Of a stretch of 64,000 nucleotides of DNA, positions 50,590 through 64,000 are shown in pieces. The DNA lies in contig NZ_JACJPX010000002.1 of NCBI RefSeq assembly GCF_014696315.1, positions 1 to 64,000 of the forward strand. Direction: 5' to 3'. This DNA is from Calothrix membranacea FACHB-236. GTDB lineage: Bacteria; Cyanobacteriota; Cyanobacteriia; Cyanobacteriales; Nostocaceae. Position numbers and translations under genes: made by a program. The notes beneath the pieces are model-generated. The model was not told the DNA's origin. It saw only the letters and a list, made by a program, of their open reading frames with translations, and made no database searches. The stretch's first letter is position 1, and each line of letters starts with the position of its first letter.

Positions 50590-52347
50590 TCAGGATGCTA
50601 GTAGTTCTGGCTGAGATATTAAACCCAGAAGAGTATGGCGCATTTGGCTAATAGCTTGGAGTTGATAATCTCCAGTTTCTTGAACTTGAGCCAAAGCTTC
50701 CACCATTGCTTGCAACTTCTGCCGTAAACCATCCAGACAGTCCTGAATTGGTTGTAATGCTTCTTGGTAAAGCTTCACCCTACCCCAGCACTCACTAGTT
50801 GCAGTTCTCAATGTTTGTAAATTTTCCTCCATTGTTTTTAGTTCTTGGTGCTGCTGTTCTAAGTCATGGCTTTGATTATCAATCATCCCTTGGGCAAGCT
50901 CAATACCAGAACGTAACTGCTCAATCTCTCGTTCCAATTTTTGCAAATCTTGAGATTGCTGTTGTCGCTGGTTTTCAGTTTGCAAAAGAATTGGTCTCAA
51001 ATCAATTTTGGCAGCTTCTGGCTCATGACTAACCGTATGCCCTTGTCGCTGTAGGAGCAGAGTTTGGTGCTGTTTAAGTAAATTTTGCCGTTGTAGTAAA
51101 TTACGACGTTGCCCTACCAAGCTTTCATTGAGCATTTGGTAGAGGTCTTTTTCATCTGCCAGTTCCATTTCCAAATTGATCACGTCTTGGTCGGATGCCT
51201 GGTGAATCTTATTTTTTAGGTCTTCTATAGCTTCTTGTTTATATTTCAGTTCTTGTTCCTGATCGTGGACAAAGCTAGAATCGATATCAAATTTCTCCTG
51301 CAAATCTTGCACTAATCTTTGCAGATCCTCTAAAGACATATTCTCTAAAGCTTTAACATCTACTTCGCAAAGAATCATGTCACTGGAGCTTGCAGCCAAG
51401 GACTGAATCTGCTGATATAAATTTTCTTGGCTTTGCAATTGTGCTTTCAATATTTGAGCGTATTCTTGCTTGCTTGTCAGGATAGCAGTGTTGACTTTTA
51501 ATTCAGATGTTTGTTGCTGTAGAGAATTTTGTGCTTCTTGCCAAGCATTTTGGCGATCGCTCAAGGTTTGGACAAAGCTATCTACTTCTTGTTGCTGTTG
51601 AGTCGCTACAGTTTTTTGCTGCTCTAGGTTTTGCCAGTGTTCATTAAGAGTAGCTTGCTGCTTTTCGACTAATTCAACAGCAAAATTCAGGTGTTCCCGT
51701 ACTGTCTCCGTAGGAGCTACGCGACTAGACAAGCGATCTAGTAACTCACTTAATACTCGACTTTGCTCCTCGTCTAAAACCTTACCCTGCTGGGCATCTG
51801 CTTGATATTCCTCCAAACGGCGCTGCTCACCCCGCAAATGCTCCCAAGCGCCTGAAAGTTCTAAGCGATCGCGCTCAATTTGTTGTTGCAACTTTTCAAT
51901 TTCTTGGCGAGAGGCTTCAAATTCCTGCTTTTGCGCCTCCAGCTTTTGAAAATCATCCTCAATTTGTTGCAACTGATCCATACGGACTTCCATGTCCATT
52001 TCACGGCGATTCAATTCTTGCGCCTGAAATGTCAGTGATTGTTTCCACTGATCGATTTCGTCTTCCTTGAGCTTAAATTTTTCTAACTGGCGAGAAAAGT
52101 TCTGCAATATATTAACAAGTGGTCTCCCAGCTTCTTGAATCCGTTGCACTTGGCGGTTGGGATTCACTTCTACTAGTACCAATGCACCATCATTTAATTT
52201 GCTTGCTTCCTCTGCCGCAATCACTTCTTCCGACACAGTACTCCAAATCTGGTCGGTTCGCTGACAAGCCAGCAGTTTCAATTCGGTTTTGGAACTACCA
52301 CTAAGTAAGCCGCCTTTTTGCTTTTGTACTTCTGCTAAATACAGCAC
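50590..52347 (-). CDS. hmpF: Pilus motility/taxis coiled-coil protein HmpF
   Basis: A 585-residue protein recognisable as HmpF by its N-terminus (MLYLAEVQKQKGGLLSGSSK, then LLACQRTDQIWSTV) and by its place next to the hmp cluster. Residues about 75-530 are nearly continuous coiled coil rich in Gln, Glu and Leu. There is no signal peptide or membrane segment. In Nostoc punctiforme HmpF is needed for hormogonium gliding and localises dynamically to cell poles with the type IV pilus system. The segment coding SSRVAPTETVREH (near residue 210) coincides with a GTCTCCGTAGGAG/GCTACGCG module also found at 32730-32754, probably a small repeat inserted in frame. It is divergent from hmpA. Confidence 0.9.
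   Translation of the reverse strand: MLYLAEVQKQKGGLLSGSSKTELKLLACQRTDQIWSTVSEEVIAAEEASKLNDGALVLVEVNPNRQVQRIQEAGRPLVNILQNFSRQLEKFKLKEDEIDQWKQSLTFQAQELNRREMDMEVRMDQLQQIEDDFQKLEAQKQEFEASRQEIEKLQQQIERDRLELSGAWEHLRGEQRRLEEYQADAQQGKVLDEEQSRVLSELLDRLSSRVAPTETVREHLNFAVELVEKQQATLNEHWQNLEQQKTVATQQQQEVDSFVQTLSDRQNAWQEAQNSLQQQTSELKVNTAILTSKQEYAQILKAQLQSQENLYQQIQSLAASSSDMILCEVDVKALENMSLEDLQRLVQDLQEKFDIDSSFVHDQEQELKYKQEAIEDLKNKIHQASDQDVINLEMELADEKDLYQMLNESLVGQRRNLLQRQNLLKQHQTLLLQRQGHTVSHEPEAAKIDLRPILLQTENQRQQQSQDLQKLEREIEQLRSGIELAQGMIDNQSHDLEQQHQELKTMEENLQTLRTATSECWGRVKLYQEALQPIQDCLDGLRQKLQAMVEALAQVQETGDYQLQAISQMRHTLLGLISQPELLAS
51704..51723. repeat. Small palindromic module inside hmpF
   Basis: gtctccgtaggag directly followed by ctacgcg lies inside hmpF codons. 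The same two parts, gctacgcg and gtctccgcaggag, occur at 32730-32754 in a spacer. It is read through in frame, adding about seven residues to the coiled coil at a likely break. Confidence 0.55.
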
Positions 52348-52904: not shown

Positions 52905-54131
52905 ATGCAGGGAAATTTAAATGAAATAGATCTTCGTAGTATCCTGCAATTGATTGAGTTGGGCCAGCGAACTGGCCAACTGTTGGTGAAAACTCATAAC
53001 TTTCGCAATAGCAACCAAATTAGAGAAGAGGTGAATAGATATCACCATTCCTTTTGCTACCAACCACAACAGTACTGGTTCGTCTTTTTCTTAAATGGCC
53101 AGATTATCTATTGCCAAGAAGGGGATGGTACTTCATCTAGGATTAACGATTACTTAAGACATTATCGTGTGGAGACTCAGCTCAACGAAATCCAGCTAGC
53201 CTCCATAGATCCACTGAATATAAAAGAATATAGCTATCTTTGGTTACTTTTAGAGCAAAATATGATTAACCCCAAGGTAGCGCGTAATATCATGCATAGT
53301 CTGGTGAATGAAACGCTATTTGATTTAGTGGGTTTGCACACAGGTAGTTTCATCTTCCAACACAGCCCGGCCCTGACTCCACAATTAAACACTTGGGAAA
53401 TAGGGCCGCTAGTCAGTAAAATTGCCAAGCAACTGCAACATTGGCAGCAGTTGTATCCTCACATTGAGTCTGCCGATCAAGTGCCCATACTTTCTGAGAT
53501 GGTTCAATTAAACTCATCTTTACCAGCAGAAACAGTAAATAAACTCAAGCATTGGGCAGATGGGAAAACATCCTTACGTCAACTTTCTCGTTATCTCAAC
53601 CGAGACATTTTGACAATTGCCAAGGTAATATATCCCTACGTCCAACAGGGTTGGCTCAAATTAGTATATCCAATTACTAATCAATCAAGTATTAATACTG
53701 AGATGATTGCAGTAGAGTCCGACTATAAGGCACGGATATTATGTATTGACGAAGTCACAACGATTGGTGAGACTATAGAGGCTATTTTGCAGCAGCAAGG
53801 TTATGAGGTGTTAACTTTAACTAATCCCTTAGACTCTCTAAGTCTCGTTTTTCAACTCAAGCCGCAGATGATTTTTTGCAACATTACCATGCCGGAATTA
53901 GATGGATATGAGATTTGCGCCATGCTGCGACAGTCCACAGCATTTCGGCTGGTGCCGATTATTATGCTGAGTAGTCAAGATAGATTTATTGATCGAGTCA
54001 GAGCTAGTATGGTTGGGGCTACAGATTATCTGACTAAGCCTTTGCAAGATACTGAGTTACTCACGCTCGTAGAAAAATATATCAATAAACAGCCTTACAT
54101 GGGCATACAAAAAAGATATAACACTTGTTGA
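52905..54131 (+). CDS. hmpA: PatA-family protein HmpA (DUF4388/PATAN + degenerate receiver)
   Basis: A 408-residue signalling protein. The N-terminal DUF4388/PATAN part (about 1-250) begins MQGNLNEIDLRSILQLIELG. The C-terminal receiver (about 280-400) has ILCIDE for the acidic pair, and YLTKP for the conserved Lys. The phospho-acceptor position reads FCNITMPELDGYE, with Asn (codon aac) where Asp is expected. Phosphorylation there is therefore unlikely. PatA-type proteins influence cell differentiation and motility in Nostocales. In the known hmp locus the first gene encodes such a protein, and here it is followed by CheY, CheW, MCP and CheA genes. Spacing to hmpB is 182 bp. Confidence 0.92.
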   Translation: MQGNLNEIDLRSILQLIELGQRTGQLLVKTHNFRNSNQIREEVNRYHHSFCYQPQQYWFVFFLNGQIIYCQEGDGTSSRINDYLRHYRVETQLNEIQLASIDPLNIKEYSYLWLLLEQNMINPKVARNIMHSLVNETLFDLVGLHTGSFIFQHSPALTPQLNTWEIGPLVSKIAKQLQHWQQLYPHIESADQVPILSEMVQLNSSLPAETVNKLKHWADGKTSLRQLSRYLNRDILTIAKVIYPYVQQGWLKLVYPITNQSSINTEMIAVESDYKARILCIDEVTTIGETIEAILQQQGYEVLTLTNPLDSLSLVFQLKPQMIFCNITMPELDGYEICAMLRQSTAFRLVPIIMLSSQDRFIDRVRASMVGATDYLTKPLQDTELLTLVEKYINKQPYMGIQKRYNTC

Positions 54132-54313: not shown

Positions 54314-54679
54314 ATGAGTACAGTTCTGATTGTGGAAGACAGTATCGCACAAAGGGAGATGATTACAGACCTCCTGAAAGCAAGTGGCTTAACAGTCACC
54401 CATGCCAGTGATGGGGTTGAAGCTTTGGAGGCAATTCAAAGCACACCTCCTGATTTAGTGGTCTTGGATATTGTCATGCCCCGGATGAACGGCTACGAAG
54501 TTTGCCGTCGGTTAAAATCCGATCCGAAAACCCAAAATGTCCCCGTTGTGATGTGTTCTTCCAAAGGTGAAGAATTTGATCGCTACTGGGGCATGAAACA
54601 GGGTGCAGACGCTTACATAGCCAAACCATTTCAACCAACTGAGTTGGTGGGAACAGTCAAACAACTGCTGCGAGGATAA
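54314..54679 (+). CDS. hmpB: CheY-like response regulator HmpB
   Basis: A stand-alone receiver domain of 121 residues. The phosphorylation site is intact: VLIVEDS (acidic pair), LVVLDIVMPRMNGYE (Asp52 by count), the conserved Ser in VVMCSSKG, and YIAKPFQP (Lys). It should take phosphate from the CheA-like HmpE and signal to the pilus motor. It is the second gene of the hmp cluster. The hmpC start follows 13 bp after its stop, which supports one transcript. Confidence 0.95.
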   Translation: MSTVLIVEDSIAQREMITDLLKASGLTVTHASDGVEALEAIQSTPPDLVVLDIVMPRMNGYEVCRRLKSDPKTQNVPVVMCSSKGEEFDRYWGMKQGADAYIAKPFQPTELVGTVKQLLRG

Positions 54680-54692
54680 GGATGACAAGAAA

Positions 54693-55223
54693 ATGGTCAG
54701 TAAACCGGACTTTTTAAGTGGTGGTAGTCAAGACCACTTCCGTCCTGAATTACAAGTAGAAAGCCCTGAAGGTGAATTACATTTGCGGTTTTACATCCCC
54801 TCGCGCCAGGAGTTTGCACTACCAGCAACTGGAATCCGAGAGGTAATGGAATTGAGTCCTGATAGAATCACTCCGATTCCTAATGCTTCTCCTTTACTTT
54901 TGGGTACTCTAAACTTACGAGGTCGAGTAATTTGGGTAGCTGATTTGGGTCAATTTTTAGGAGAAGCAACCGCATTAAATACAGATAGAGCAGAAATTCC
55001 GGTAATTGCTATCGAAGAGCAAGACACAATAGTGGGCTTAGCGGTAGAAGAAATAGGTGGTATGGACTGGCTTGATGTGCAGCATCTAATGCTAACAACT
55101 CATGTACCGGATACTATGGCTCCCTTTCTGCGCGGTGAGTGGTTAATAGATGCCAAAACAAATAAGTCTTTAAGACTACTGGATCAAATGGCAATTTTGC
55201 GGAGTGCGAGGTGGGCAGGATGA
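54693..55223 (+). CDS. hmpC: CheW-like coupling protein HmpC
   Basis: A 176-residue CheW domain that couples the chemoreceptor to the kinase. After a polar N-terminal tail of about 28 residues, the fold shows [40 protein letters not shown] (the conserved P-P-LLG-NLRG block), [12 protein letters not shown], and [20 protein letters not shown]. Stop and next start are 16 bp apart, so co-transcription with hmpD is expected. CheW here may be adapted to pilus-based phototaxis or hormogonium movement. Confidence 0.95.
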
Positions 55224-55239
55224 TATTGGGAGGGTGGAC

Positions 55240-58227
55240 ATGGCAGCAAGTATAGATGATTACTTAGAAATATATAAGCAGGCTTGTACGGCTTACGCGC
55301 AACAGAACTATGATGTTGCCGCCACTTTAGTGGATCAAGTGGTACAAAATTTGCCAAATGACCCTAACTCCCATTTGTTACGGGGTCACATATACTATGT
55401 TTTACAGCAGTACGATATAGCCAAAGCTGAATATCAACAAGTTTTACAGTTAACCGAAAATCGAGAATTAATTGATTTTGCTAAACATGGTCTGGAAAGT
55501 ATTGCTCAATATCAACAATCATTACCAGATGAGTTTGCTATCAGTGAAAATAATGAAGATATTTCTTCATCAGAAATATCCAATGGTCGGTTCGCGGATA
55601 CAGAAGACTTACAAAATTCGCAACAGAATAATGATTTTGCTAGCAGTAGCTTTGGCGACAATCCCTTTGGTGAATACCAAGAATCTGGCGATGAAATAGA
55701 AGAACTATCCTTAGATAGTTCATTGGACAGTTCATTTGATATCTCTGCATATAGTAGTAGTGCATTTAATGGTTTAGCAGATGATTCAGCACCTTTGAGT
55801 AACGATCCCTTTAGTTTTACTGAGGAAGCTAGCGATCGCGACACCAATGCTAACATTTGGGAAAAACAAGGAGAATTAGAGTTACCTGCTTTTTGGCAAG
55901 AAGACAACAATCAAAATAATATTGATGATTCAGGGATAAATAATCCTTTTGTAGAAGCTACTACAAATTCAAATAATAAAGGTTTCACTAATTCGGAAAA
56001 TTATAGCGATTCACCGTTTACAGAAGTTGAAGAACTTGATGCTTCAGCAAGTAATAATTGGGAAATACCTACTGAATTCTTAACGTCAGAAACCTATCCA
56101 GAACCTAGCGAAGCTGATTTCGAGTGGAAGAGTAATAGCCTGGAAAATGAAACTCTAGTTAAGAACCAAACACTTCTCCAGGAAAGTGCGTCAAAAACTA
56201 GCAATTTGCCATCGCAGCCTCAGGAGAATTTATCCCCTACTACACCTGATAATTGGTTGGGCCCGATAGAAGCTGAAGATACATTAAAAGAAGTAGTTAG
56301 CGCTACCGATCAAAATTTTCACCGAGAAGAACGGCCACAAAAACAGGTTAGTAAGGTAGAAGAAAATAATTCTGATACTGATGATAGTTTTGATTTGGAG
56401 GCTTTTGAATCTGCCTTTGGCACAGATGATTTCAGTCCCGATGACGAACCAAGCAATATCCAAGCCAGTAATATCACTAGTGGAGAAATTAATCGCGAGA
56501 CTTCTAAAACTAATATAGATTTTTTAGATGACTTTGATGAATTTGACGACCTAGGTAACATTCCTGGATTTGATTTGACAGATGCAGAAGCCAGCTTCAG
56601 AGATGTCAGCATGGATTCTGGCCCGTTGGAAACAGGTAGTCACCCTCGCAGTCAAACCGGACAACCACCTGCAATTGATGAAACAGGCGATCGCGAAGAT
56701 GAACTGTTTTCAATTACTGGTTCCCAAGAAGTAGTCCCAGTATTTACCCAAGTAGATGTCGCTAAATTAGAAGCCAATGTCAGCGTTGAGCAAGGTTGGT
56801 TAGCGCCTTTAGAAAATGCTTCCCTAGAAAAGAAACAATGGTTGATTGCGGGAACAGTAGGTGTAGTATCAGCCCTAGTGGTAGCAACAGTCAGCTTTGG
56901 CGCTACCAGTTTTTCGCCGCCACAGCAGCGAGAATCAGTGCGTAACACTGGCTGGGCCATGTCACTAGCAGCAGGGCTGGCTGGTTTTGCTACCGCAGCT
57001 TTTATGGGTAATTTCACTATTAAGCAAGTTCGCCGCACAACTCAGAATTTACAAGCTCAGTTTGATGCTGTTCGTCAAGGCAATCTCAATGTTCAAGCCA
57101 CAGTCTATTCTGAAGATGAATTAGGACTGTTGGCTACTGGCTTTAATGAAATGGCAAGGGTAATTTTTACTACTACCAATGAAGCCCAAAGAAAAGCTGA
57201 TGAACAGGAAGAAGCCAAAGAAAATCTACAACGCCAAGTAATTCGCCTATTGGATGATGTAGAAGGAGCAGCCAGAGGAGATTTAACAGTACAAGCTGAG
57301 GTCACAGCAGACGTACTAGGAGCCGTAGCTGATGCCTTTAACCTGACAATTCAAAACTTGCGGGATATTGTGCAACAGGTAAAAGTAGCTGCCCGTGATG
57401 TTACCAAGGGTGCAACGAATTCCGAAACATTTGCTAGAGCCTTATCTAGTGATGCTTTAAGGCAAGCAGAAGAGTTAGCAGTCACGCTCAATTCTGTACA
57501 GGTAATGACCGACTCCATTCAACGGGTAGCGGAAGCAGCGCGAGAAGCTGAAACTGTTGCTCGTGATGCTAGCACCATCGCCTTAAAAGGTGGTGAAGCC
57601 GTGGAAAATACCGTGGCAGGTATTTTAGAAATCAGAGAAACTGTGGCAGAAACTACTCGCAAAGTGAAGCGCTTAGCGGAATCTTCGCAAGAAATTTCTA
57701 AGATTGTGGCGTTAATTTCACAAATTGCTTCCCGAACCAATTTATTAGCGCTCAACGCTAGTATTGAGGCAGCCAGGGCAGGTGAAGCCGGACGCGGATT
57801 TGCAATTGTAGCGGATGAAGTACGCCAGCTAGCAGACAAATCTGCCAAGTCCCTAAAAGAAATTGAACAAATCGTGATGCAAATCCAGAGTGAAACAGGC
57901 TCTGTAATGACTGCAATGGAGGAAGGGACACAACAGGTAATTAAAGGTACTAAATTAGCTGAAGAAGCCAAGCGATCGCTAGAAAATATCATTCAAGTAG
58001 CAAATCGTATTGATATCCTGGTGCGCTCAATTACCTCGGATACTGTAGAACAGACCGAAACCTCCCGTGCAGTAGCTCACGTTATGCAATCGGTAGAACT
58101 AACAGCACAGGAAACTTCCCAGGAAGCACAAAGAGTATCTGGTGCGCTACAACACTTAGTAGGCGTATCAAGAGACTTAATTGCTTCTGTGGAACGTTTC
58201 CGGGTAGATACTCTCGAATCTAGATAA
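55240..58227 (+). CDS. hmpD: Methyl-accepting chemotaxis protein HmpD
   Basis: A 995-residue chemoreceptor from ATG 55240, which has a ggaggg ribosome site close upstream; the ATG at 55204 overlaps hmpC and is rejected. Residues about 5-100 form TPR-like helices. About 105-520 is an acidic Asn/Ser/Asp-rich linker without recognisable fold. Two membrane helices follow (about 534-560 and 571-590) with almost no periplasmic loop, so any ligand is not sensed there. HAMP domains lie at about 590-720. The signalling domain contains [20 protein letters not shown] and [20 protein letters not shown]. Input probably comes from the cytoplasmic N-terminal part. Confidence 0.94.
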
Positions 58228-58353
58228 AGTATGAAGTATAAAATGTGAAGTGTGAAATAGTAAGTATGAACTATTATTCATGCTTCAGTCCCTTTAACCT
58301 TTAACCTTTATCTTTCATTTTTTTCTTTCATCCTTTATCCTTCATCATGTCCT

Positions 58354-61300
58354 ATGCTGCCGGAACAACAACAGCGCATTTTAGGTTACTTTATTGAAGA
58401 AGCAAGAGACCACCTGAATACCATTGAGCAGGGGTTGTTAAATCTTCAGAGTACCCTGAACGATCCAGAAATGATCAACGAAGTCTTCCGGGCTGCTCAC
58501 TCCATTAAAGGAGGAGCGGCGATGCTTGGTTTGAGTAGCATCCAGCATACATCTCACCGCCTAGAAGATTGTTTCAAGGTTCTCAAAGAAAATCCGATTC
58601 AGGTTGACCAAAAGTTAGAGTCCTTATTTCTTGGGGTTTCTGATACCCTTAAAGCGCTACTAGAGAATTTGAGCGGCCCATTTGGTTTGTCAGAAGAGAC
58701 AGCTAATACATTGATGTCGGAAACTGAGCCGGTCTTTCAATGGCTGAACGAGCATTTGGAACTACTTGTACAACAAGCAAGCGGTGGTGTAGACAGTAGC
58801 GTTTCACCAGCAATGCAGCCAGCTTTTGCTGATCACTCCCACACGCTAACAGAAATCTTCATGCAACGGGATTTCTCCGTCCCGGAAGAAGAAGCACCAC
58901 CCCAAAAGCCTACGCCAGTTGTTACCAAAGCAAATGATAACTGGGGTGAGTTTCAAGCTCAAGTGCTGCAAACGCTACGAGAAATGTTGCAGCTATTTAA
59001 ACAAGGGACAACACCAGAAAATCGGCAACATCTCCAGCAAACTTGCCACCAATTAGTCGTATTGGGTCAGACATTTAATTTGCCCAAATGGTGTAAGTTA
59101 TGCGAAGCCGCAGAAAATGCGATCGCTAATCCAGATAATAGTTATCTCACTCTGGCAAAAATCGTCATTACAGAAATTAAAAAATCTCAGGAATTAGTTC
59201 TTAAAGGTAAAGAATCTGAAATTGTCATTAGCCAGCAGCTAGAAGTTCTTTTGAGTTTCCCTGACGTTGAGCTATTTGAAGTTGCTACTGATTTACCGGA
59301 TGAGTTTGCAATTGGGACAACTCCATCCGCTAAAGCTAATAATGAAGCGATCGCTAATGAGTTAGCTGCTCCAACGCGAGATAATTTTGTCAATACCACT
59401 AATAACAATATAGCTAGCGTACCTGACCTAACAGTACCAGTTAAACAAGATAAAGAGATTTTTACAGCTAAAGAAAATTCTACCCCTGAGACTTCTGAAT
59501 TATTCAACTTCTTACCAAATAATGAAGATGAAACAGTACTGACAAATCAAAATCTTGACCCCAAAGGGCCAGAAGTTGGAATTGCTGAGTTAAATACACT
59601 TGCTGATTTATTTGAAGGTGAAACTCCCGAACTAGATGAAACTTGGCAACAAGAGGAAATTTTAGACATTAATGCAGCCAACAAATTAGGTATTGATACC
59701 AGCAGTAGTAACACTGAAGATGCTGATAGTGATTTAGCTGATTTACTATCTTTTGATGAACCCACCAGTATTGATGAATCTAAACAAACTATTATTCAAA
59801 CAGAAGATTTCAGCCTATTATTTGGTGAAAGCTTCCTAGAAAAAGAAAATTCTCCTGCGAAACCTCTAAAACCATCAGCAACAAACTCTGAGACCAATAA
59901 TATTTCTCAAAATGATAGAAATTTAAGCTCATCTACTAATGAAAGTCTCAGAGAATTTACAGAAATTCTGCAAGAATATCCTGGTGATATTGCCCCACAA
60001 GATGTGGTGCAAGATTTATTGAGTCTAGAACTAGATGAAACCAATCTGCTGTCTCTTGATGAATTACATCAACCAGATACAGAAGCCAGTTTTGATGATT
60101 TATTCTCAGAAACTTCAAATGACAGTTTATTAGAAGAAATTTCTCCAATTAACTTCCCACAGCCAGAAAGCTTGTCTTTGGATAATCCATTTACTGACTT
60201 GACAGAAAATCCTCTACTTTCTACTAGCGAATCAACAATTGACGATTTATTTGATCCGCAAGCAACAGTAGCAAGGGATTATGATATTTCAGCAGACGAT
60301 TTAAGCAACTTCTGGAATGAAGACGCTGGCGCAGAACCACAGCTAGAATTTAGTTCTCGGGTTGAGCAAGATGTCGCCAAAGCGCTAGAGGAGAGTTTGT
60401 TTACAGCTGCTCATGACTTTTTGGATGATAGCGAGTTAGCTCAATCCTCAGCATCGCCTTTTGAAGTAAAAGATTTTAATCTGACTTTTCAGCCAGATGA
60501 TGAGCAGTTTGATCTGATGTTTGAAGCCGATGCTGGAGATGATTTATTTGCAGATTTGGCATCAGAAAACACAGCTATTTCTCCTGCTGATGCTACCGAA
60601 CTACCTGTGACAGAAATTCGTAGCTTGACACCAGAGGAAAGCGATGTTTATGAAGGACTAAGCCTACACTCACCACTCCCCGCAACAACATTACCTCCCG
60701 AATTAGATTTCACCCCAGAATTCACCAATCAGCCATCAACAGACAATACATTTGGTAGTTTTGGGGATAATGATTTATTTGATGTCATCAACGACAATAG
60801 CGGTGATAATCCACAATTGTTATTTGAGAATATCAACACCACTCACTCAACATATATTCAGCTTGACCCTTCAGAAATTAGGATTTCTGATACTCACGAA
60901 TTAGGTTTAGGCGATAATTTACTGTCAACATCAGCCGATTTAGACCTAGATTTAAACGAATCGACAGAAGTACAACAGCGTCCAGCAAATCTCGATTTAT
61001 TCGCAAATATTGAAACCGCAGAAACAACTAATGATGATGTTTCAAACTTAGATTTAGGTGCTGATTTACTAGAAACAGAAAATGATTTAGAACTAGGTTT
61101 AAATGAATCGACAGAAGTACAACAGCGTCCAGCAAATCTCGATTTATTCGCAAATGTTGAAACGGCAGAAACAACTAATGGTGAGTTCGCAACATTAGAG
61201 TTAGGCGATGATTTACTGACAACATCAGATGCTCTAGAACTGAATTTTGGCGAAGCAACAGAATTAGCACAGCCGGAAAATAATCTAGATTTATTAGCGA

Positions 61301-64000
61301 ATGTTGAATCTGTAGAAACAAAGAATAATGAGGTTTTAGGATTAGAGTTAGGCGATGATTTACTGGGAACAGCAGCTAATTTAGAACTGAATTTTGGCGA
61401 AGCAGCAGAATTAGCACAGCCGGAAAATAATCTAGATTTATTAGTAAATGTTGAATCTGTAGAAACAAAGAATAATGAGGTTTTAGGATTAGAGTTAGGC
61501 GATGATTTACTGGGAACGGCAGCTAATTTAGGACTGAATTTTGGCGAAGCAGCAGAATTAGCACAGCCGGAAAATAATCTAGATTTATTAGCGAATGTTG
61601 AAACCGTAGAAACAAAGAATGATGAGGTTTCAGGATTAGATTTAGGTACTGATTTACTGACAACATCAGATGATTTAGAACTGAATTTTGGCGAAGCAGC
61701 AGAATTAGCACAATCAGACAATAATCTAGATTTATTAGCGAATGTTGAAACCGTAGAAACAAAGAATGATGAGGTTTCAACTTTAGATTTAGGTGCTGAT
61801 TTACTGACAACATCAGATGATTTAAAACTGAATTTTGGCGAAGCAGCAGAATTAGCACAATCAGACAATAATCTAGATTTATTAGCGAATGTTGAAACCG
61901 TAGAAACAAAGAATGATGAGGTTTCAACTTTAGATTTAGGTGCTGATTTACTGACAACATCAGATGATCTAAAACTGAATTTTGGCGAAGCAACAGAATT
62001 AGCACAGCCGGAAAATAATCTAGATTTATTAGCGAATGTTGAATCTGTAGAAGCAAAGAATGATGAGGTTTCAGGATTAGATTTAGGTACTGATTTACTG
62101 TCAACATCAGATGATTTAGAACTGAATGCCAACGAAGTAACATTAGTACAATCAGACAATAATCTAGATTTATTAGCGAATGTTGAAACCGTAGAAATAG
62201 CTAATAACGAGGTTTCAACATTAGATTTAGGTCATGATTTACTGTCAACATCAGATGCTCTAGAACTGAATTCCAACGAAGCAAAATTAGCACATCTGGA
62301 AAATAATCTAGACTTATTTGCAAATGTTGAAACCGTAGAAACAAAGAATGATGAGGTGTCAGGATTAGATCTAGGCACTGATTTACTGACAACATCAGAT
62401 GATTTAGAACTAAATTTTGATGAGGGAACAGAATTAGCACAGCCGGAAAATAATCTAGATTTATTAGCAAATTTTGAAACGGCAGAAAAAGCTAATGATG
62501 AGGTTTCAGAATTAGATTTAGGCACTGATTTACTGGGAACAGTAGATAATTTAGAACTAAATTTTGATGAGGGAACAGAATTAGCACAGTCGGAAAATAA
62601 TCTAGATTTATCAGCAAATATTGAACCTGTAGAAACAAAGAATGATGAGGTTTCACAATTAGATTTAGGTGATGATTTACTGGCAATAGCAGATGATTTG
62701 GATCTGAATTTTAATGAAGTAACAGAATTAGCACAGCCGGAAATAAATTCAGAGATTTTAGAGACTGCAGAAACGACTCTTGCTGATAGCGCAGAATTAA
62801 ACTTACTAGATGATTTATTAGCAACAGAAACTATACTGCAAGCCGAAACAAAGCTGGAAGACGCAGCAAATACCCAAGATACTGATGCTGCGATGTCTAC
62901 GACGGGCTACGCCTACGCAAACAATGTAGTTGAATTAGATGCAGCTAATGATTTTTCTGCATCCCTAGAGAATATAACCCAGACCGATGAAGTGGCAATA
63001 ATTACCGAAGCAGAATTGGATGTGCCACCATCAACTCCAGAAGATGAATTTGCTGAATTAGAAACATTACTAGAAGAGGAATTAGCTTCCCCCTTACAAG
63101 AAGAAGATTTTGCGGCTCTGGAAGCATTGTTGGATGCAGATCTCAATGAGGAGCCATCAGCAGCACCTTTACCTGTTTACCCACAACAATCGCAACCACC
63201 TACCGCTTACAATAATGCCAACACTGCTACTACATCATCAGAATTAGAAGATGAATTTGGTGACTTAGAAAAATTGTTGGCGGAAGCAGATCAAACCATA
63301 TCTCATTCACCATCTATCAAATCAACCCCAGGCAAAGCCGCACGTCCTGCAACGCGTCGGGGTGCAAGATTTGAAGAAACGATGAAAGTTCCAGTGAAGC
63401 AACTAGATGATATGAGCAATCTAGTTGGGGAACTGGTAGTAAATCGCAATACCTTGGAGCAGGATCACGAGCGTCTGCGACAGTCATTAGATAACTTGCT
63501 GATTCAAGTACAACAGCTATCTGATGTTGGGGCGCGGATGCAAGAATTATATGAGCGATCGCTATTGGAAGCTTCTTTGTTAGCTACCCGCAAACATAGA
63601 GAATCTGGTGGCTCATCAAGTGATTCCAATTCTGACAGGGGTTTCAGTGAATTGGAAATGGATCGGTTTACGCCTTTCCATACACTGTCCCAAGAAATGA
63701 TTGAAATGATCGTCAGGGTACGTGAGTCTGCGAGTGATATTGACTTTGTGACTGAAGAAACTGAGAGAGTAGCGCGACAGTTTCGGCAAGCCACAACTCA
63801 ACTCCAAGAGGGATTAACACGGGCCCGAATGGTGCCTTTCTCTCAAGCTATTGATCGCTTGCGACGAGGAGTGCGGGATAATGCCATTAAATATGGTAAG
63901 CAAGTGGAGTTAATGATTGAGGGTGGAGATACCTTAATTGACAAAATGATTTTGGATCACTTGACCGATCCACTAACTCATATGCTCAATAATGCGATCG
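58354..64000 (+). CDS. hmpE: CheA-like histidine kinase HmpE (3' end outside window)
   Basis: The reading frame is open from ATG 58354 to the window end, 1882 codons so far. The N-terminal Hpt domain has AAHSIKGGAAMLGLSSIQHT (phospho-His near residue 50). A very long acidic linker, about 130-1670, follows and includes a 49-residue tandem repeat (about 870-1465). Then come the CheA dimerisation region (VPVKQLDDMSNLVGELVVNR near 1680), LQEGLTRARMVPFSQAIDRL and the start of the ATPase domain (DPLTHMLNNAI). CheW-like and possible receiver domains would lie beyond base 64000. It receives signals through HmpD-HmpC and phosphorylates HmpB. An alternative ATG at 58347 is out of frame. Confidence 0.93.
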   Translation, partial: MLPEQQQRILGYFIEEARDHLNTIEQGLLNLQSTLNDPEMINEVFRAAHSIKGGAAMLGLSSIQHTSHRLEDCFKVLKENPIQVDQKLESLFLGVSDTLKALLENLSGPFGLSEETANTLMSETEPVFQWLNEHLELLVQQASGGVDSSVSPAMQPAFADHSHTLTEIFMQRDFSVPEEEAPPQKPTPVVTKANDNWGEFQAQVLQTLREMLQLFKQGTTPENRQHLQQTCHQLVVLGQTFNLPKWCKLCEAAENAIANPDNSYLTLAKIVITEIKKSQELVLKGKESEIVISQQLEVLLSFPDVELFEVATDLPDEFAIGTTPSAKANNEAIANELAAPTRDNFVNTTNNNIASVPDLTVPVKQDKEIFTAKENSTPETSELFNFLPNNEDETVLTNQNLDPKGPEVGIAELNTLADLFEGETPELDETWQQEEILDINAANKLGIDTSSSNTEDADSDLADLLSFDEPTSIDESKQTIIQTEDFSLLFGESFLEKENSPAKPLKPSATNSETNNISQNDRNLSSSTNESLREFTEILQEYPGDIAPQDVVQDLLSLELDETNLLSLDELHQPDTEASFDDLFSETSNDSLLEEISPINFPQPESLSLDNPFTDLTENPLLSTSESTIDDLFDPQATVARDYDISADDLSNFWNEDAGAEPQLEFSSRVEQDVAKALEESLFTAAHDFLDDSELAQSSASPFEVKDFNLTFQPDDEQFDLMFEADAGDDLFADLASENTAISPADATELPVTEIRSLTPEESDVYEGLSLHSPLPATTLPPELDFTPEFTNQPSTDNTFGSFGDNDLFDVINDNSGDNPQLLFENINTTHSTYIQLDPSEIRISDTHELGLGDNLLSTSADLDLDLNESTEVQQRPANLDLFANIETAETTNDDVSNLDLGADLLETENDLELGLNESTEVQQRPANLDLFANVETAETTNGEFATLELGDDLLTTSDALELNFGEATELAQPENNLDLLANVESVETKNNEVLGLELGDDLLGTAANLELNFGEAAELAQPENNLDLLVNVESVETKNNEVLGLELGDDLLGTAANLGLNFGEAAELAQPENNLDLLANVETVETKNDEVSGLDLGTDLLTTSDDLELNFGEAAELAQSDNNLDLLANVETVETKNDEVSTLDLGADLLTTSDDLKLNFGEAAELAQSDNNLDLLANVETVETKNDEVSTLDLGADLLTTSDDLKLNFGEATELAQPENNLDLLANVESVEAKNDEVSGLDLGTDLLSTSDDLELNANEVTLVQSDNNLDLLANVETVEIANNEVSTLDLGHDLLSTSDALELNSNEAKLAHLENNLDLFANVETVETKNDEVSGLDLGTDLLTTSDDLELNFDEGTELAQPENNLDLLANFETAEKANDEVSELDLGTDLLGTVDNLELNFDEGTELAQSENNLDLSANIEPVETKNDEVSQLDLGDDLLAIADDLDLNFNEVTELAQPEINSEILETAETTLADSAELNLLDDLLATETILQAETKLEDAANTQDTDAAMSTTGYAYANNVVELDAANDFSASLENITQTDEVAIITEAELDVPPSTPEDEFAELETLLEEELASPLQEEDFAALEALLDADLNEEPSAAPLPVYPQQSQPPTAYNNANTATTSSELEDEFGDLEKLLAEADQTISHSPSIKSTPGKAARPATRRGARFEETMKVPVKQLDDMSNLVGELVVNRNTLEQDHERLRQSLDNLLIQVQQLSDVGARMQELYERSLLEASLLATRKHRESGGSSSDSNSDRGFSELEMDRFTPFHTLSQEMIEMIVRVRESASDIDFVTEETERVARQFRQATTQLQEGLTRARMVPFSQAIDRLRRGVRDNAIKYGKQVELMIEGGDTLIDKMILDHLTDPLTHMLNNAI
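60973..62745. repeat. 147-bp tandem repeats in hmpE, about 12 copies
   Basis: The marker taatctagat recurs at 61281, 61428, 61575, 61722, 61869, 62016, 62160, 62304, 62451 and 62598: seven spacings of 147 bp and two of 144. Two earlier, more diverged units (marker caacagcg) start at 60973 and 61120, also 147 apart. Each unit encodes about 49 residues with the pattern LDLGDDLLTTSDDLELNFGE, then LAQPENNLDLLANVETVETK. Length variants are multiples of 3, so the frame is kept. The antisense strand therefore also contains long spurious frames. Confidence 0.97.
62896..62917. repeat. In-frame small repeat in hmpE coding GYAYA
   Basis: The bases gacgggctacgcctacgcaa break an otherwise acidic Glu/Asp/Asn-rich linker and encode TGYAYAN. 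GC content and codons differ from their surroundings. Repeats of this type are familiar from spacer and coding sites of Nostocales from memory; no second copy is in this window. Confidence 0.45.

Follow-up and report, generated by a model that had tools for sequence, protein, structure and literature searches.

We found that the linker of HmpE, a CheA kinase, contains in the filamentous cyanobacterium Calothrix membranacea FACHB-236 a tandem array of 12 in-frame units, and that other lineages carry different tandem arrays in the same orthologous linker, with similar charge and hydrophobic content. CheA is a textbook signalling enzyme, and the stretch that joins its Hpt to the core tends to be regarded as a mere linker. 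The interpretation we favour, held tentatively and just short of even confidence, is that the array acts as a disordered polyanionic spacer, variable in length and dose, that carries weak hydrophobic stickers. Tandem repeats that code for part of a disordered linker are of a kind already known. Their repeated use, with composition kept, in the orthologous linker of one core motility kinase is, as far as we have seen, apparently undescribed; among the literature matches listed, a body lying mostly outside subscription journals, none described tandem arrays in HmpE or in the linker of a CheA.

The hmp locus and the array in HmpE

The window, that is the whole stretch of 64,000 nucleotides analysed, ends inside the kinase gene (Table 1). 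The locus is hmp and the gene product is HmpE, the type-IV-pilus CheA. The first-pass annotation had given it this label, and it is borne out by the Hpt and H-kinase_dim domains and by hmpF, which was recognised by NF038350 and adjoins hmpA-E in the expected hmp gene order, as judged also from the domains of the other genes. Further downstream, aa 1766-2149 match CheA models of NCBIfam (scores below curated cut-offs) and aa ~2186-2305 match receiver models. No P2/CheY-binding family was detected by Pfam at E<=0.001 in aa 1-1882. The long acidic linker comes after the second, weak Hpt-like segment. Hpt-only frames elsewhere in the order are ~300 aa long, a length sufficient for a true Hpt plus such a weak segment. 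Between hmpD and hmpE, TRF also reported a 14-bp tandem repeat, CCTTTATCCTTCAT (4.1 copies, 58291-58346).

Table 1. Features of the hmp locus in the window, with positions counted from its first nucleotide.
Feature	Position	Strand	Remarks
hmpF	50590..52347	-	NCBIfam NF038350 taxis_HmpF, 775 bits, cut-off 200
hmpA (DUF4388 + receiver)	52905..54131	+	Pfam; name from locus order
hmpB (CheY-like)	54314..54679	+	Pfam; name from locus order
hmpC (CheW-like)	54693..55223	+	Pfam; name from locus order
hmpD (MCP with TPR, HAMP)	55204..58227	+	Pfam; no array by TRF
HmpD linker conserved island	56527..56556	+	make-up similar to HmpE motif
hmpE (CheA, Tfp-type)	58354..64000	+	CDS cut by window end; on the contig it ends at 65301, 2315 aa
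Hpt (P1) domain of HmpE	58378..58671	+	aa 9-106; Pfam PF01627, E=1.4e-20
Second weak Hpt-like segment of HmpE	58957..59124	+	Pfam Hpt, E=0.0014, 19.3 bits, curated cut-off 24.6
Tandem array with leading partial unit, hmpE	60900..62748	+	TRF, unit extraction, profile matches
Unit starts	60991, 61138, 61285, 61432, 61579, 61726, 61873, 62020, 62164, 62308, 62455, 62602	+	
Possible degenerate unit remnant after array	62758..62838	+	aa 1469-1495; weak profile match, 5.6 bits
Motif copy 1, DEFAELETLL	63043..63072	+	low-confidence short helix overlaps
Motif copy 2, EDFAALEALL	63103..63132	+	
Motif copy 3, DEFGDLEKLL	63250..63279	+	43 aa before P3
H-kinase_dim (P3) domain of HmpE	63376..63546	+	aa 1675-1731; Pfam PF02895, E=1.2e-7

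The tandem array is real. TRF reported it at 60900-62743 with a period of 147, 12.6 copies, 85% matches and a score of 2092, and a TRF row with a period of at least 30 arose in only 1 of 100 trials with the codon-shuffled array. Extraction of units gave 12 in-frame units at 60991-62748 in one open frame, preceded by a partial unit beginning at 60900; ten units are 49 aa long (147 bp) and two are 48 aa long (144 bp; 62020-62163 and 62164-62307). The about 12 copies of a 147-bp unit noticed at first are thus confirmed, as is their placement between the Hpt and H-kinase_dim domains assigned by Pfam, and the limits first given (60973-62745) are right apart from one partial unit.

Over the 66 pairs of units, identity averages 82.6% in DNA (68.7-97.3) and 70.8% in protein (44.9-95.9). 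The closest neighbours are u03/u04 (97%) and u05/u06/u07 (96-97%). Because pairwise identities spread so widely, the earlier description of the units as highly alike fits such neighbours more than the array overall. Mean dN between units is 0.187 and mean dS 0.260, and dN exceeds dS in 18 of the 66 pairs; the ratio of 0.72 suggests weak constraint.

An assembly artefact, raised by the first-pass annotation, was rejected as unlikely because assemblies of relatives in few contigs share the 49-aa unit (G005, 7 contigs, 12 cores; G002, 20 contigs, 13 cores) and no exact 150-bp repeat occurs inside the array. The exact copy number given here is the one read in a 164-contig assembly and is provisional.

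Arrays and their turnover among HmpE orthologues

Relatives came from a search of 39 genomes, the window's own included, and from fetched stretches and named loci; the genomes compared are species representatives. From 68 loci we obtained 58 proteins, 50 of them distinct and two incomplete. Calling an array where TRF gave a period of at least 30 and at least 2.4 copies, we detected one in 25 of the 50 distinct orthologues. All 51 TRF rows from these 25 have periods divisible by 3; the earlier remark that lengths change by multiples of three is right. In proteins with P3 located, arrays lie between aa 300 and P3 in 48 of 48 rows; the other three rows come from L044 and L096, in which the fetched frame does not include P3. 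The array starts at aa 815-948 in 18 of the 25 orthologues, earlier in six and later in one. Linker length, available for 47 orthologues, ranges from 232 to 1567 aa, with a median of 1066 where an array is present (n=23) and 774 where it is not (n=24). The hmpE frame runs off the contig in L044/L045 (Nostoc sp. T09, where the break falls inside the array), L096, L112, L113, L122 and L130, so hmpE length is under-reported there.

Units differ between lineages and measure about 15 to 64 aa. Calothrix brevissima NIES-22, for instance, has a 34-aa unit with LDFGGLDAFDTP, and Nostoc sp. 106C a 37-aa unit with QEFATLEEVVDF. Only five of the 50 orthologues (L009, L043, L040, L041, L046) match the profile of the 49-aa unit strongly, at about 33-95 bits for each main unit; seven others match it weakly (at most about 14 bits) and 38 not at all. 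These five form one clade with 100/100 support in a domain tree of 46 of the 50 orthologues (L044, L058 and L096, with no P3 by pattern, and L057 were left out). The same repeat number and sequence in distant relatives, named beforehand as contrary evidence, did not turn up; units are lineage-specific and the 49-aa unit is strong in this one clade. The array of each lineage may be a separate birth or an older array made uniform again. In shuffle-controlled alignment of the 20 hand-typed unit strings described below, 16 of 190 pairs exceed z=6, some of them across clades, and for this reason the 13 unit groups used below (formed at z about 10, with L043 and L046 added from profile matches) are not claimed as 13 origins.

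The unit profile was also run against 118 genomes of the family, where it matched in 3, always within HmpE frames; G003 and G007 also carry the 49-aa unit and were apparently outside this draw. By blastn, 72,556 plasmid records gave no match. A mobile or shared domain was rejected on these two results. In Nostoc carneum NIES-2107 (L046 / L076), hmpE itself is located on a 553,734-bp record titled plasmid1.

The repeat turnover expected at first from the likeness of units is supported by close relatives. Nostoc sp. B(2019) (L087) exceeds Komarekiella delphini-convector (L084) by one 64-aa unit, in proteins that are otherwise 92% identical. G000 and G005, its nearest relative, have 12 cores each; the first two units of one correspond to the first two of the other (94 and 93%) and outer units are conserved, and the inner units are often scrambled. 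Identity between the two is 97% in the Hpt part, 97% before the array, 76% in the array, 92% in the linker after it and 99% from P3 to REC. In G002, the best-scoring TRF row has a two-unit period of 291 bp.

Composition, predicted disorder and possible roles of the array

Composition was compared in 21 of the 25 array-bearing orthologues (L050, L054, L057 and L063 were left out). The arrays contain 28.4% D+E, on average 0.8% K+R, 28.1% large hydrophobics and 6.2% Pro+Gly, with a mean net charge per residue of -0.276; in 28 linkers without array, the values are 24.8% D+E, 3.1% K+R and 28.0% large hydrophobics. Compared with the linker preceding it in the same protein, the array is poorer in K+R in all 13 unit groups (0.8% vs 2.6%, p=0.00024) and richer in D+E in 12 of 13 (p=0.0012). 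Among 20 unit strings, which are hand-typed typical units and not computed consensuses (three from the 147-bp family, two from L042), 17 are free of K or R, where windows of equal size in their own linkers lead one to expect 6.8, and [DE][LM][LF] occurs 17 times against 7.6 by shuffles. Linkers without array contain the same pattern 216 times against 82.7 by shuffles, a 2.6-fold excess that is inflated by pseudo-replication because the proteins are related.

The window's own array is acidic and Leu-rich, as first described, with 24.9% D+E against 22.6% in its pre-array linker, and its net charge per residue is -0.227. Its purge of Lys and Arg is mild: K+R is 2.3% against 3.5% before the array, the second highest of the 21 arrays, and its unit contains one K. 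The unit has three [DE][LM][LF] (0.9 by shuffles) and lacks the stricter [DE][DENA][LM][LF].

AF2, given four units and an alignment of 34 rows, returned a mean pLDDT of 36.3; none of the 195 residues reached 50, and strands were drawn at repeating places without confidence. Disorder of the array appears likely from this model, though for repeats with a shallow alignment AF2 gives weak evidence. A folded repeat, either a solenoid or an amphipathic helix bundle, would suit the invariant unit columns (L, D, N and E at fixed places in related copies) and the repeating strands of the model, but we reject it as hardly credible since no helix and no confident fold were predicted, and the check for an amphipathic helix suggested at first came out negative.

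These data are consistent with the following picture. The array would be that part of the linker which repeats have expanded, the linker as a whole being long, negatively charged and probably intrinsically disordered. It would form an extended polyanionic spacer bearing many weak acidic/hydrophobic stickers of the [DE][LM][LF] kind, such as DLL or DLF. This spacer may hold the Hpt domain and the DEFxxLExLL motifs near P3 apart, and partners at the polar pilus/chemosensory site may bind to it at many places with low affinity. The array may also be a binding platform, as proposed at first. Tandem in-frame duplication and deletion would change copy number and so adjust length and sticker dose with kinase function intact, and selection would keep sequence less strictly than charge and hydrophobic content. 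That arrays so differently spelled are similar in composition suggests that bulk chemistry and length outweigh exact sequence. As regards units, in-frame turnover, lineage specificity, composition, lack of a confident fold and Hpt-less extensions, this reading draws on sequence and prediction. Several observations speak against it: 25 of the 50 orthologues have no detectable array, L117 and L131 have an Hpt and hardly any linker, the window's array is weakly purged of Lys and Arg, has no strict sticker and no DEFxxLExLL in its unit (p=0.90), and the composition could be inherited from an already acidic seed linker.

Near-neutral expansion, by slippage or unequal recombination in a linker tolerant of any in-frame disorder, would give copy number little effect. 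It accounts for the array-free half of the orthologues, for the wide range of linker lengths, for the between-unit dN/dS of 0.72 and for the fast turnover. We consider it rather unlikely all the same, on account of the depletion of K+R beyond the protein's own linker in every unit group and of HmpD, which has no array by TRF in any of 31 frames against 14 of 30 HmpE frames of the same species; HmpD is an imperfect control because its linker is shorter.

Another explanation, raised by the first-pass annotation, is a pure entropic tether, in which the sole role of the array is to fix how far Hpt reaches and at what effective concentration it meets the kinase core and the response regulators. The location of the array between Hpt and P3, the lack of a confident predicted fold and the greater length of linkers with array all fit a tether. 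Its expected effect is small: in a polymer estimate that ignores charge repulsion, end-to-end distance rises from about 25 nm in the absence of the array to 36 nm in its presence, and the whole array shifts the effective Hpt concentration only about 3-fold (~35 to 12 uM). About 28% of large hydrophobics also seems to us high for a plain spacer.

Relatives devoid of Hpt provide a built-in test of the tether idea. Among 45 kinase frames, partly picked for short or long length and hence no unbiased sample, 25 have an Hpt, 16 have none and 4 are cut at the 5' end. Fifteen of the 16 Hpt-less frames retain an extension of 233-869 aa before P3, with 17-31% D+E and 2.8-10% K+R, less purged than the arrays, and two of the 16 contain a tandem array (L111 and L124; the P3 of L124, 93 aa, has probably been placed wrongly). 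Eight of them have a separate Hpt frame, in the same fetched stretch and on the same strand for L106-L108 and also for G028, G029, G030, G038 and G106; for the remaining eight, the genome was counted with an Hpt relative. In two Hpt-less kinases, L065 and L072, LFGExFSF-like motifs recur in the acidic extension. In Synechocystis, the tax3 cheA is split into pilL-N and pilL-C, according to the accessible text of PMC7656254, and PilL-N / PilL-C belong to a Type 1 system, like hmp, in the accessible part of a review (PMC12288463); on that account, a cheA in two genes leaves no covalent Hpt tether there. In the 15 Hpt-less frames, a long, mostly acidic segment persists where tethering of Hpt is impossible, so the linker segment would appear to be not merely an Hpt tether. 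We therefore hold the pure tether to be unlikely; of the earlier proposal, the position between the domains, the acidic Leu-rich nature and the in-frame length change stand, and the setting of Hpt reach as its role is weakened by the Hpt-less frames and the roughly 3-fold effect.

The DEFxxLExLL motifs lie outside the array (Table 1), and AF2 placed short helices over all three at a pLDDT of about 50-55, with surroundings near 30. In 47 of the 50 orthologues (L044, L058 and L096, with no P3 by pattern, were left out), the strict form is present in 41 and occurs 91 times within the 125 aa that precede P3; the shuffle expectation of a wider form is 0.00-0.12 per linker. The pattern is absent from the other script-recognised CheA-like frames of the genome (L002, L003, L004, L007, L008), and its wider form occurs in 8 of the 16 Hpt-less kinase frames. 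The conserved island of HmpD reads DEFxD[LF] in 22 of 31 frames, with near variants in 7 more, and a partner shared between it and the HmpE motifs is possible. DEFxxLExLL may resemble the FliM and CheZ peptides that bind CheY. That the array is an amplified copy of such a response-regulator docking peptide would agree with this conservation and with L062, whose array unit is the motif (p=0.0005), but is very improbable, since the window's unit scores no better than shuffles (PSSM, p=0.90) and the 20 units combined reach p=0.039 mostly through L062. A profile search of PDB sequences, with a profile short and of little power, found no FliM or CheZ peptide; its sole match was a chance-like one to a beta-lactamase (E=4.5).

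The polyanionic spacer can be carried one step further. HmpE may be a sticker-dose rheostat, in which Lys/Arg-poor DLL/DLF polymers, created anew in different lineages, would gather Hmp and pilus-motor proteins into a dynamic polar assembly; recombination, by changing copy number, would tune polarity switching and with it the reversals of filaments. We regard this extension as quite improbable; if true, a core signalling kinase would contain a locus of the contingency type. More generally, HmpE arrays form a natural length/dose series for probing the role of a disordered linker in a chemosensory kinase, and they bear on the question whether composition alone is selected.

Comparison with known systems

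The Hmp system of Nostoc punctiforme reportedly goes back to a founding paper by Risser et al. in 2014. Gene families and order in the window are identical to that system, HmpA-F, with HmpE as its CheA. In the accessible text of PMC10581220, the N. punctiforme genes hmpA-E and hmpF are Npun_F5960-F5964 and Npun_R5959, and the review available in part as PMC12288463 states that the Hmp system governs the localisation of HmpF, itself tied to pilus activity. HmpE shares with Tfp-class CheA proteins such as ChpA of Pseudomonas aeruginosa an N-terminal Hpt, a C-terminal receiver and the absence of P2, as far as the accessible text of a survey goes (PMC10782961). ChpA has, by the same text, many Hpt domains in its N-terminal half, whereas in HmpE a single clear Hpt is followed by a long linker that contains repeats. 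The words 'repeat' and 'disorder' have 0 occurrences in the main text of that survey, within its accessible part.

Outside chemosensory kinases, two groups of proteins invite comparison with the spacer we propose. Algal pyrenoid linker proteins have a repeat structure. They are likewise disordered and little conserved between species in the accessible text of PMC11570498; they serve eukaryotic Rubisco condensation and are an analogy only. The acidic IDR of PopZ of Caulobacter has a charge of -0.28 per residue and keeps its composition and not its sequence, according to the part of PMC9512792 that is accessible. The HmpE arrays are like it in their strong negative charge and in having no confident AF2 fold. 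In the same source, the IDR of PopZ is rich in proline and varies little in length across Caulobacterales, whereas HmpE arrays are hydrophobic-rich and very variable in length, with neither Pro-richness (6.2% Pro+Gly) nor a conserved length (linkers of 232-1567 aa). Of the systems compared, the PopZ IDR would be the closest functional parallel of the proposed spacer.
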